Assembly: GCF_041270065.1 (NCBI RefSeq) | Contig: NZ_CP065958.1 | Span: 1,364,001 to 1,428,000 of the forward strand | DNA length: 64,000 nt | From: Streptomyces fradiae | Lineage (GTDB): Bacteria > Actinomycetota > Actinomycetes > Streptomycetales > Streptomycetaceae | Direction: 5' to 3' | Shown here: in pieces, positions 3,286-18,346 of the stretch | Position numbering within the stretch: position 1 is the first letter of the stretch | How the letters are laid out: every line of letters begins with the position of its first letter | Made by a program: the position numbers and the translations under genes | Notes under the pieces: generated by a model | What the model was told of the DNA's origin: nothing | Database searches by the model: none | What the model saw: only the letters and a program-made list of their open reading frames with translations

Positions 3286-5262
3286 TCAGACCTGGACGCG
3301 GCGCTCCACCACGTCGGCCAGCTTCGCAAGCGCGTCCTCGCGCGGGATGCCGTTCTCCTGCGAACCGTCGCGGTAGCGGAAGGAGACCGTGCCCGCGTTC
3401 ATGTCCTCGTCACCGACGATGATCATGAACGGCACCTTCTGGCGCTGCTGGTTGCGGATCTTCTTCTGCATGCGGTCGGACGAGGCGTCCACGTCGACCC
3501 GGAGGCCCCGCTTGCGCGCGTCCGCGGCGAACTCCTGCAGGTACTCGACGTGCGCGTCGCCGATCGGGATGCCGACCGCCTGCACCGGGGCCAGCCACGG
3601 CGGCATGGCGCCCGCGTAGTGCTCAAGGAGCACCGCGAAGAAGCGCTCGATGGAGCCGAACAGGGCGCGGTGGATCATGACCGGGCGCTGGCGCGAGCCG
3701 TCCGCCGCCGTGTACTCCAGGTCGAAGCGCTCCGGCAGGTTGAAGTCGAGCTGCACGGTCGACATCTGCCAGGTGCGGCCGATGGCGTCGCGCGCCTGCA
3801 CCGAGATCTTCGGGCCGTAGAACGCGGCGCCGCCCGGGTCGGGGGTGAGCGGGAGGCCCTGCTTCTCGGCGACCTGCTGGAGGACCGCGGTGGCCTCCTC
3901 CCACACCTCGTCCGAGCCGACGAACTTGGTCTCGTCCTTGGTCGACAGCTCCAGGTAGAAGTCGGTCAGACCGTAGTCGCGCAGCAGGTTGAGGACGAAG
4001 GTGAGCGTCTTGTCGAGCTCCTCCGCCATCTGCTCGCGGGTGCAGTAGATGTGCGCGTCGTCCTGGGTGAAGCCGCGGGCCCGGGTCAGGCCGTGCACGA
4101 CGCCCGACTTCTCGTACCGGTACACGGTGCCGAACTCGAACAGGCGCAGCGGCAGCTCACGGTAGGAGCGCCCGCGCGCGTCGAAGATCAGGTTGTGCAT
4201 CGGGCAGTTCATGGGCTTGAGGTAGTAGTCCACGCCCTCGTCGAGCTGCATGGGCGGGTACATGCCCTCGGCGTACCAGTCGAGGTGGCCGGACTTCTCG
4301 AAGAGCTTGCCCTTGGTGGCGTGCGGCGAGTAGACGAACTCGTAGCCCTCCTCCTCGTGCCGCTTGCGGCTGTAGTCCTCCATGGTCCGGCGGATGATGC
4401 CGCCCTTGGGGTGGAAGACGGCGAGGCCGGAGCCGATCTCGTCCGGGATGGAGAAGAGGTCGAGCTCGTTGCCGAGCTTGCGGTGGTCGCGCTTCTCGGC
4501 CTCGGCGAGGAAGTCGAGGTGGGCCTTCAGCTCCTCCTTCGACGGCCACGCGGTGCCGTAGATGCGCTGGAGCATCGGGTTCTTCTCGCTGCCGCGCCAG
4601 TAGGCGGCGGCGTTGCGCATGAGCTTGAAGGCCGGGATGTTGCGGGTGGTGGGCAGGTGGGGACCGCGGCAGAGGTCCTTCCAGCACAGCTCGCCGGTCT
4701 TGGCGTCCAGGTTGTCGTAGATGGTCAGCTCGCCGCCGCCCACCTCGACGTCCGCGCCGTCGTCGGTCGACGCGGAGCCCTTGATGCCGATGAGCTCCAG
4801 CTTGTACGGCTCGTCGGCGAGCTCGGCGCGGGCCGCCTCGTCGGTGACCACGCGGCGGGCGAACTTCTGCCCGCGCTTCTGGATCTCCTGCATCTTCTTC
4901 TCGATGGTCTTGAGATCCTCGGGCGTGAACGGCTTCTCGACGTCGAAGTCGTAGTAGAAGCCGTCCCGGACCGGCGGGCCGATGCCCAGCTTGGCCTCGG
5001 GGAAGATCTCCTGCACGGCCTGCGCCATGACGTGCGCGGTGGAGTGGCGCAGGATGTTGAGACCGTCCTCGGAGGAGATCTCGACGCCCTCGACGACATC
5101 GCCCTCGGCGAGCTCGTACGACAGGTCCTTCAGCTCGCCGGCCACGCGGGCGGCGATGACGGTGCGGTCGTCGGCGAACAGCGCGCCGGCCGTGGTGCCC
5201 GCGCTCACCGTCCTCTCCTCGGGCCCGGAGGCGGACTGGACGGTCACACGGACTTCAGACAC
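3286..5262 (-). CDS. thrS: Threonyl-tRNA synthetase
   Basis: 658 aa class II aminoacyl-tRNA synthetase charging tRNA-Thr. It has an N-terminal TGS domain (about 1-65), then the additional/editing domain with HSTAH at about 72. The catalytic core carries NCPMH (about 350, a Zn-binding Cys), the motif 2 arginines in GLTRARGF, and motif 3 [11 protein letters not shown] (about 527). A C-terminal anticodon-binding domain follows. I chose the GTG at 5262 because GGAG lies five bases upstream and the resulting length, 658 aa, equals what I recall for S. coelicolor ThrRS. In-frame ATGs at 5277 and 5319 would start inside or beyond the leader hairpins described separately. That leader suggests translational self-control. 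No T-box is present. Confidence 0.97.
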
Positions 5263-5263
5263 G

Positions 5264-5353
5264 GATGCTCCATACATAGGGGCGCGGGCAGACACGAGGT
5301 GCCGGCGCCAACGGTGCACGGCAGAGACGAGGTGCCGCGCGCCACCGATCCTA
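5264..5353 (-). promoter_or_regulatory. thrS leader: two anticodon-arm-like hairpins and promoter -10
   Basis: Read on the minus strand, a TAGGAT -10 element (5353-5348) would start transcription around 5344-5340. Two stem-loops follow. Hairpin 1 (5343-5313) has an 11-position stem (one G-U, one C-A mismatch) and loop CCUCGUCUC. Hairpin 2 (5309-5281) has a 10-position stem (one C-C mismatch) and loop CCUCGUGUC. Both loops hold CUCGU, which matches positions 32-36 (pyrimidine, U33, anticodon CGU) of a tRNA-Thr(CGU) anticodon loop. The Shine-Dalgarno GGAG and GTG start follow 10-19 nt downstream. E. coli ThrRS is known to repress thrS by binding leader hairpins that imitate its tRNA. Transferring that mechanism here is inference. 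Confidence 0.5.
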
Positions 5354-8230: not shown

Positions 8231-8236
8231 TCCCGG

Positions 8237-8308
8237 TGGGCGATACTGGGATCGAACCAGTGACCCCTTCGGTGTGAACGAAGTGCTCTCCCGCTGAGCT
8301 AATCGCCC
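8237..8308 (-). tRNA. tRNA-Val(CAC), copy 1
   Basis: 72 nt. The minus-strand cloverleaf has acceptor GGGCGAT pairing with ATCGCCC, D arm GCTC/GAGC, anticodon stem CTTCG/CGAAG around loop TTCACAC (anticodon CAC), and T arm CTGGTTCGATCCCAG. CCA is not fully encoded (A73 then CCG). Identical over its whole length to the copy at 11374-11445. Confidence 0.97.
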
Positions 8309-11367: not shown

Positions 11368-11373
11368 TCCGGG

Positions 11374-11445
11374 TGGGCGATACTGGGATCGAACCAGTGA
11401 CCCCTTCGGTGTGAACGAAGTGCTCTCCCGCTGAGCTAATCGCCC
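11374..11445 (-). tRNA. tRNA-Val(CAC), copy 2
   Basis: 72 nt, identical base for base to the copy at 8237-8308, with the same anticodon loop TTCACAC and the same lack of encoded CCA. It also ends against a strong terminator shared with a convergent protein gene. Confidence 0.97.
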
Positions 11446-17863: not shown

Positions 17864-17936
17864 GCGGACGTGGCTCAGTTGGTAGAGCATCACCTTGCCA
17901 AGGTGAGGGTCGCGAGTTCGAATCTCGTCGTCCGCT
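17864..17936 (+). tRNA. tRNA-Gly(GCC)
   Basis: 73 nt. Acceptor GCGGACG/CGTCCGC, anticodon stem TCACC/GGTGA around loop TTGCCAA (GCC), T loop TTCGAAT. No CCA encoded. First gene of a five-tRNA transcript. Confidence 0.97.
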
Positions 17937-17976
17937 CGATGTGGGGGATCTTCCCGAACCCCCGAATCACACTCCT

Positions 17977-18050
17977 GGTGGAGTGGCCGAGAGGCGAGGC
18001 AACGGCCTGCAAAGCCGTCTACACGGGTTCAAATCCCGTCTCCACCTCCA
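17977..18050 (+). tRNA. tRNA-Cys(GCA)
   Basis: Acceptor GGTGGAG/CTCCACC, anticodon stem ACGGC/GCCGT around loop CTGCAAA (GCA), T loop TTCAAAT. CCA is encoded at 18048-18050, unlike the other tRNAs here. Only one base separates it from the next tRNA. Confidence 0.96.
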
Positions 18051-18051
18051 A

Positions 18052-18123
18052 GGACGATTAGCTCAGCGGGAGAGCGCTTCCCTGACACGGAAGAGGTCAC
18101 TGGTTCAATCCCAGTATCGTCCA
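18052..18123 (+). tRNA. tRNA-Val(GAC), copy 1
   Basis: 72 nt. Acceptor GGACGAT/ATCGTCC, anticodon stem CTTCC/GGAAG around loop CTGACAC (GAC). The body is identical to the next two copies; only acceptor base pairs differ. Confidence 0.97.
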
Positions 18124-18125
18124 CT

Positions 18126-18154
18126 GGACCTTCGGGTCCCGGATCTTCGGATCC
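18126..18154. repeat. Two UUCG-capped hairpins in tRNA spacer
   Basis: GGACC-TTCG-GGTCC (18126-18139) then GGATC-TTCG-GATCC (18141-18154). These are C(UUCG)G-type stable mini-hairpins filling the spacer between tRNA-Val copies 1 and 2. They may guide 3' processing (inference). Confidence 0.8.
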
Positions 18155-18157
18155 CCC

Positions 18158-18229
18158 GCGCGATTAGCTCAGCGGGAGAGCGCTTCCCTGACACGGAAGA
18201 GGTCACTGGTTCAATCCCAGTATCGCGCA
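18158..18229 (+). tRNA. tRNA-Val(GAC), copy 2
   Basis: 72 nt. Acceptor GCGCGAT/ATCGCGC, i.e. two base pairs changed on both strands relative to copy 1. The rest is identical, anticodon GAC. Confidence 0.97.
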
Positions 18230-18231
18230 CT

Positions 18232-18260
18232 GGACCTTCGGGTCCCGGACCTTCGGGTCG
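18232..18260. repeat. Second pair of UUCG-capped hairpins
   Basis: GGACC-TTCG-GGTCC at 18232-18245 and GGACC-TTCG-GGTC at 18247-18259 repeat the arrangement of the preceding spacer, so the unit 'tRNA plus two hairpins' was duplicated. Confidence 0.8.
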
Positions 18261-18264
18261 TCCC

Positions 18265-18336
18265 GCGCGATTAGCTCAGCGGGAGAGCGCTTCCCTGACA
18301 CGGAAGAGGTCACTGGTTCAATCCCAGTATCGCGCA
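18265..18336 (+). tRNA. tRNA-Val(GAC), copy 3
   Basis: 72 nt, identical to copy 2 including acceptor GCGCGAT/ATCGCGC. Last gene of the cluster. Confidence 0.97.
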
Positions 18337-18346
18337 CCAGTCACGA

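Follow-up and report, generated by a model that had tools for sequence, protein, structure and literature searches.

Tandem hairpins resembling the tRNA-Thr(CGU) anticodon arm in the thrS leader of a Streptomyces clade: a candidate translational operator

The window analysed here is the whole stretch of 64,000 nucleotides from Streptomyces fradiae. On its minus strand it carries thrS, the gene for threonyl-tRNA synthetase (ThrRS), with a GTG start codon at 5262, preceded by two hairpins whose loops contain a threonine anticodon (Table 1). The encoded protein has the Pfam class II core, anticodon-binding and second additional domains, and its TGS domain scores 19.9 bits, below the cut-off of 22.2. 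It aligns with E. coli ThrRS (1qf6_A, residues 34-652, E 9.1e-148). By hand count on this alignment, the E. coli residues N575, R583, R589, E600 and R609, which we take to be anticodon contacts, align with S, R, K, D and R of the window protein: R583 and R609 are kept, and N575, R589 and E600 differ. Seven tRNA genes are also found in the window (8235-8308 and 11372-11445 on the minus strand, 17864-18339 on the plus strand), of which five code for valine tRNAs, with a pair of tRNA-Val(CAC) genes 3.1 kb apart and three tRNA-Val(GAC) genes clustered with Gly and Cys tRNA genes. tRNAs are the sole Rfam matches in the whole window; the thrS leader gave no Rfam match even at E up to 5.

Table 1. 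Features of the thrS leader region in the window
Feature	Positions	Strand	Basis
-10 element TAGGAT, presumed thrS promoter	5348..5353	-	read from sequence
Distal anticodon-arm-like hairpin 1, loop CUCGUCU	5313..5343	-	sequence, folding, kept in 33 loci
Proximal anticodon-arm-like hairpin 2, loop CUCGUGU	5281..5309	-	sequence, folding, kept in 33 loci
thrS Shine-Dalgarno GGAG	5268..5271	-	sequence
thrS, threonyl-tRNA synthetase (658 aa), presumed repressor and target	3286..5262	-	Pfam, 1qf6_A match

Judging from the presumed -10 element, the thrS transcript is expected to start near 5342-5340. A scan with the sigma-70 consensus detected no promoter at this -10; in relatives the same place is mostly occupied by TACGAT, TAGGAT or TAAGAT. 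An in-frame GTG at 5319 (minus strand) lies upstream of the conserved thrS start, and an automatic gene caller could extend the protein from it through hairpin 2.

Direct reading confirmed what an earlier note on this DNA had described: two minus-strand hairpins in front of the thrS Shine-Dalgarno site, CUCGU in both loops, 10-11 stem positions, and G-U and C-A in one stem against C-C in the other. Hairpin 1 is GGC-GCGCGGCA [C CUCGUCU C] UGCCGUGC-ACC (11 stem positions, one G-U, one C-A), and hairpin 2 is GGCGC-C-GGCA [C CUCGUGU C] UGCC-C-GCGCC (10 stem positions, one C-C). Both have GGCA/UGCC as the upper stem, topped by a C-C mismatch and a loop of 7 bases. Numbered as a tRNA anticodon arm, the loops present a pyrimidine at 32, U33 and C34-G35-U36; the CGU triplets are at 5329-5327 (distal) and 5296-5294 (proximal), with C34 at -67 and -34 relative to the thrS start codon. 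As drawn, only 3 bases (5312-5310) separate the hairpins. The earlier note had also taken the difference between the stems as a sign of more than a simple duplication. The lower stems do differ, but the window arms are identical in 16 out of 17 core letters, the entire upper stem included, and differ only in the lower stems and at loop position 37. The two 17-letter cores within one leader show 1 to 4 differences across the 33 loci collected below, and an old duplication would be the simplest origin of the two arms.

The arms resemble the anticodon arm of tRNA-Thr(CGU) of the host genome (ACGCA-CUCGUAA-UGCGU): in the leader arms (GCA-C-CUCGU..C-UGC) the three upper pairs and the first five loop bases are identical to it, with one C-C mismatch inserted. 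When loop letters are compared, no other tRNA fits the loops CUCGUCU, CUCGUGU, CUCGUAC and CUCGUGC as well as Thr-CGU does; Thr is not favoured in this comparison for the rarer UUCGU loops nor for a loop with G32. The comparison is a weak test, because the domain 2 loop of the E. coli thrS operator fails it too. In a gapped alignment to whole anticodon arms Thr-CGU scores third-best for the window arms, and among the tandem leaders Thr alone is best in one out of 14 (shuffled 0 of 14), perhaps owing to the C-C mismatch. Position 37 in the tandem arms is C, G or A, unlike the A37 of the tRNA; in E. coli domain 2 this base is G.

Only two places in the 7.88 Mb genome match the arm pattern GGCACYTCGTNNCTGCC exactly, both in the thrS leader; two further sites match it with one mismatch. 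A covariance model (R1) built from 15 distinct tandem leaders likewise gave one match in the host genome. With search filters that can lose weak matches, R1 matched 29 out of 392 Streptomyces genomes (E of 6.3e-16 or better) and, among 249 genomes drawn from the family, five genomes confined to one of 17 genera (Streptomyces), with no match in the 16 other genera of that draw. There is one site per matching genome, except for a genome with sites on two contigs (G185: C9 and C31, loci L318 and L343); these share the thrS start and the leader, and may reflect either a genuine second copy or a duplication introduced in assembly. The R1 matches, both contigs of this genome included, together with S. 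roseicoloratus make up the 33 loci. Plain DNA similarity to the leader is strong (E of 5.5e-34 or better) in eight out of 150 Streptomyces genomes, the window's own included.

As R1 was itself built from such arms, an unbiased conservation figure comes from a ranking that is independent of the leader, in which 295 genomes were ordered by the first 80 ThrRS residues. The top 16 (E of 1.5e-34 or better; the next genome has E 6.6e-32) all carry the tandem arms, and the earlier note's expectation that CGU loops would be conserved in close relatives thus holds in both surveys. In a thrS tree of 108 genes all 31 tandem tips group in one clade (support 100), whose sister group is without such a loop.

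The anticodon letters are the part of the element that does not vary. U33-C34-G35-U36 is found in 66 out of 66 arms of the 33 loci, and in all 31 rows of an alignment built without any letter pattern; the arm spacing is 33 bases in 33 out of 33 loci. On the 31-tip thrS tree the eight UCGU columns have no changes. Around them, position 32 has 0 and 2 changes in the two arms (it is C or U, with one G in L338), position 37 has 1 and 2, and position 38 has 1 and 3 (it is U or C). The linker has 2.62 changes per column and the 27 upstream columns 6.96 (small indels included); in two stretches of thrS the third codon positions have 1.50 and 1.16 changes, and 55 and 61 per cent of them did not change. 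By this count, the loop positions that stay fixed are those that an anticodon mimic would need.

The GGCA/UGCC upper stems have changed eight times, each time by a C/U exchange on the 3' side that leaves a G-C or G-U pair in place, and the 5' half is unchanged; such one-sided exchanges would favour an RNA structure over a DNA dyad. The earlier note had named covarying stems as support, and in the core stems this support did not appear: no compensatory change was found at any of the 16 core pairs of R1 (27 distinct rows). Pair-breaking cells in these 27 rows number 5, 1 and 1 at three lower-stem pairs of arm 2, and one in the arm 1 stem. At its base, hairpin 1 pairs better within sequences than between them (98 pairs, against a mean of 92.8; 32 out of 2000 shuffles as high), a weak signal from a test that used permissive registers and made no correction for relatedness.

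Folded alone, hairpins 1 and 2 each adopt the drawn shape, with three and six out of 200 shuffles as good, respectively. The whole 82-base window leader is not outstanding (24 out of 200 shuffles as good), and for three whole leaders 25, 139 and 206 out of 300 shuffles were as good; whole-leader folding energy is uninformative in such G+C-rich sequence. In the minimum-energy fold of the 82-base leader, arm pairs with arm, which the arms are able to do because they are repeats. For the window this cross-paired fold is nearly even with the two-arm fold (probability 0.47 vs 0.39). Both arms attain a probability of 0.5 in 17 out of 29 unique leaders, and the cross-paired fold reaches 0.5 or more in three out of 29 (L320, L340 and L341). 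This predicted cross-paired fold may have come about as a side effect of duplicating the arm, or may represent a closed form of the leader.

A wider survey covered 209 thrS leaders, nearly all from Streptomyces, of which 173 are unique in their last 62 bases. Among these 173, 14 are tandem leaders, 71 have a single hairpin whose captured loop contains NGU (three are looser cases), and 88 show neither. Many other leaders (L003, L011, L041, L044 and more) have a short predicted tetraloop hairpin (GACC, GUUC, AAUC) just behind the -10, without a Thr anticodon. On the 108-gene thrS tree the three leader types need five changes. Anticodon mimicry is not a genus-wide property, because only part of the Streptomyces leaders show a Thr anticodon. 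The earlier note had proposed that Streptomyces ThrRS uses a two-arm operator: a conserved two-arm CGU element does exist, but the wording was too broad, the element being that of one clade and about half of the unique leaders lacking a Thr anticodon.

The main single-hairpin clade, a large one, has the form UGCG-C-GCGCU [..GGUA.] GGCGC-CGCA, and it resembles the anticodon arm of tRNA-Thr(GGU) of the window's genome. GGUA has no changes in 29 tips, the preceding base has six and the following base five; the thirtieth tip (L125) has CGUA, also a Thr anticodon, so that GGU or CGU followed by A37 is found in 30 out of 30 tips. The triplets are at -37 to -41 before thrS (e.g. L034 of S. tricolor, L007 and L020). 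The gapped arm alignment supports this clade: Thr alone is best in 31 out of 67 unique leaders (shuffled 3 out of 67), against 5 out of 92 for other leaders (shuffled 2 out of 92). U33 is not kept, which weakens the case for mimicry in this clade. A model of the single GGU hairpin (R2) gave strong matches (E of 8e-14 or better) in 103 out of 291 genomes by hand count, R2 includes the Shine-Dalgarno site, and its weaker matches, where their places were compared, are thrS leaders of other types; no compensatory changes were found in R2. The single GGU hairpin and the tandem element thus share the gene, a similar position and a Thr anticodon in the loop, and differ in that the former is one hairpin with another stem, without a kept U33, in another clade.

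What is observed at thrS is a pair of conserved arms with an invariant U33-C34-G35-U36, at a fixed spacing and a set place relative to the start codon, restricted to this gene. The reading we think probable, with a good deal of doubt left, is that the leader is an anticodon-mimic translational operator bound by ThrRS, its arms being two copies of the tRNA-Thr(CGU) arm. When ThrRS is in excess over its tRNA, the two anticodon-binding domains of the dimer (one per subunit) would grip the two CGU loops; the bound enzyme, sitting beside the Shine-Dalgarno site and the start codon, would keep the 30S subunit off, and ThrRS synthesis would fall. Uncharged tRNA-Thr would compete for the enzyme with the arms and so relieve the repression. 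Binding by ThrRS, the occupation of both arms by one dimer and the effect on translation are what we infer here; two near-identical arms at a fixed 33 bases would suit a dimer.

Other explanations of the arms have to be weighed. The hairpins may do no more than lend stability to the thrS mRNA at its 5' end or serve its processing there, or else fix the basal level of translation, with CGU loops that are inherited and go unrecognized by ThrRS. In favour of this, most folded Streptomyces thrS leaders have a predicted hairpin at about the same place whatever its loop, those with GACC, GUUC and AAUC tetraloops included; a stabilizing hairpin, however, could do without an invariant asymmetric loop, change within the loops is confined to positions outside U33-U36, and the loop reads as a Thr anticodon in two clades. 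We regard it as unlikely, though deserving of some weight. A reader of the same loops other than ThrRS, namely an RNase or modification enzyme that recognizes the anticodon loops of tRNAs, could also be imagined, as mimicry by itself would not name its reader; that the mimicked anticodon belongs to the gene's own product, and that the element is found solely before thrS in the host genome, make such a binder very improbable.

The element could also act as DNA. Its two GGCA-N9-TGCC dyads, separated by 33 bp or some three helical turns and lying downstream of the -10, would then be operators of a transcription factor, and their dyad symmetry, the site just behind the promoter and the fixed tandem spacing are in keeping with this. 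The symmetry is limited to GGCA/TGCC, however, around a conserved asymmetric centre (YTCGT); the stem changes are all C/T on the 3' half with the RNA pair kept and no mirror G/A on the 5' half; and the genome holds no third exact site, so that we consider DNA operators improbable. Least credible to us, and given almost no weight, is a leader peptide with Thr codons (GGC ACC TCG occurs twice in one frame, with a GTG at 5345) that acts by attenuation or translational coupling. The window does have a frame of this kind (5244-5345, minus strand), which begins with a GTG near the presumed transcript start, contains three ACC codons and ends at +16 in thrS, and its stop is at +16 in 27 out of 33 loci; but a start codon is in frame in only 12 out of 33 loci, the frame shifts relative to thrS in the five loci where 42 or 43 bases follow the start of the arm, and no terminator-like site was detected.

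If the preferred reading, an operator bound by ThrRS, is extended beyond this clade, anticodon-mimic operators of ThrRS would have arisen more than once: apart from that of E. coli there would be two Streptomyces designs, a compact tandem of tRNA-Thr(CGU) arms that serves both subunits of the dimer, and a single tRNA-Thr(GGU) arm. Since the tandem arms can pair with each other, the leader may also switch between two states, with both loops concealed until the open form is captured by ThrRS. This extended picture is tentative, and we would not bet on it. The natural series of tandem CGU, single GGU and no anticodon, mostly within one genus, makes it possible to ask how many arms a dimeric repressor requires.

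In the literature we could search, mostly without subscription papers and partly as excerpts, no such element is described for Streptomyces thrS. The only thrS RNA mentioned in the accessible parts of PMC10126417 is the B. subtilis leader as a substrate of RNase J, and the main text of PMC4681348 does not mention thrS. A survey of Actinobacteria that included synthetase operons reports, in the portions available to us, translational T-boxes at ileS, and ahead of threonine operons no RNA structure that is conserved (PMC1262725). A T-box reading was rejected for the present leader, which has no match to the T-box family in Rfam. The tandem T-boxes of Bacillota thrS, as the accessible text of PMC12452182 describes them, resemble the candidate operator of Streptomyces in that RNA controls a synthetase gene, and many thrS genes have them in tandem; T-boxes bind tRNA, whereas the tandem thrS leader copies it. 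Also related are two yeast elements, known to us from excerpts, in which a synthetase binds an mRNA hairpin that imitates its cognate anticodon arm: the HisRS self-binding element (PMC6542539) and the ThrRS-RPC10 element (PMC9956033), the latter reported to activate. Both differ from the present case in being eukaryotic and in not involving a Shine-Dalgarno site.

The comparison that matters most is with E. coli thrS, the well-worked bacterial case of synthetase control by tRNA mimicry. E. coli ThrRS binds the leader hairpins as it binds anticodon arms and blocks the 30S subunit, and an anticodon swap in the operator lets MetRS replace ThrRS (excerpts of PMC9976931, PMC11088916, PMC7373986 and PMC3858243). 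In both species the element precedes thrS and adjoins the ribosome-binding site, and consists of two hairpins (domains 2 and 4 in E. coli) with Thr anticodons in their loops. A hairpin with a 7-base loop and U33 occurs in both, the 7-base core in the window being flanked by a C-C mismatch. The proximal arms are close in letters and in place. In the MG1655 genome (NC_000913.3) GUGAUCU-UUCGUGU-GGGUCAC (domain 2) folds with a 7-base loop and C34 at -33; its loop (UUCGUGU) compares with CUCGUGU at -34 in the window, and in the tandem leaders the proximal C34 is at -34 in 28 out of 33 loci, at -35 in two and at -36 in three, with the thrS start 41-43 bases past the start of the proximal arm core in all 33. 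The architectures differ: E. coli has a UGU and a CGU arm 63 bases apart, the distal UGU at -96, with a long single-stranded ribosome-binding linker, whereas the Streptomyces arms are both CGU with near-equal cores 33 bases apart, the distal CGU at -67 to -69, and the linker is absent from the tandem leaders. E. coli also belongs to another phylum, and the Streptomyces element, a candidate operator, is found in one genus. Shared ancestry is unsupported, with R1 matches limited to one clade in one of the 17 family genera searched; most likely the element arose separately, within Streptomyces. If so, a near-equal loop that evolved separately at a near-equal distance from the start codon would mark a solution that is easily reached, and would show which parts are essential. 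The place and loop letters of the proximal arm suggest that the Streptomyces element follows the same logic as the E. coli operator, with a separate origin and a different architecture.
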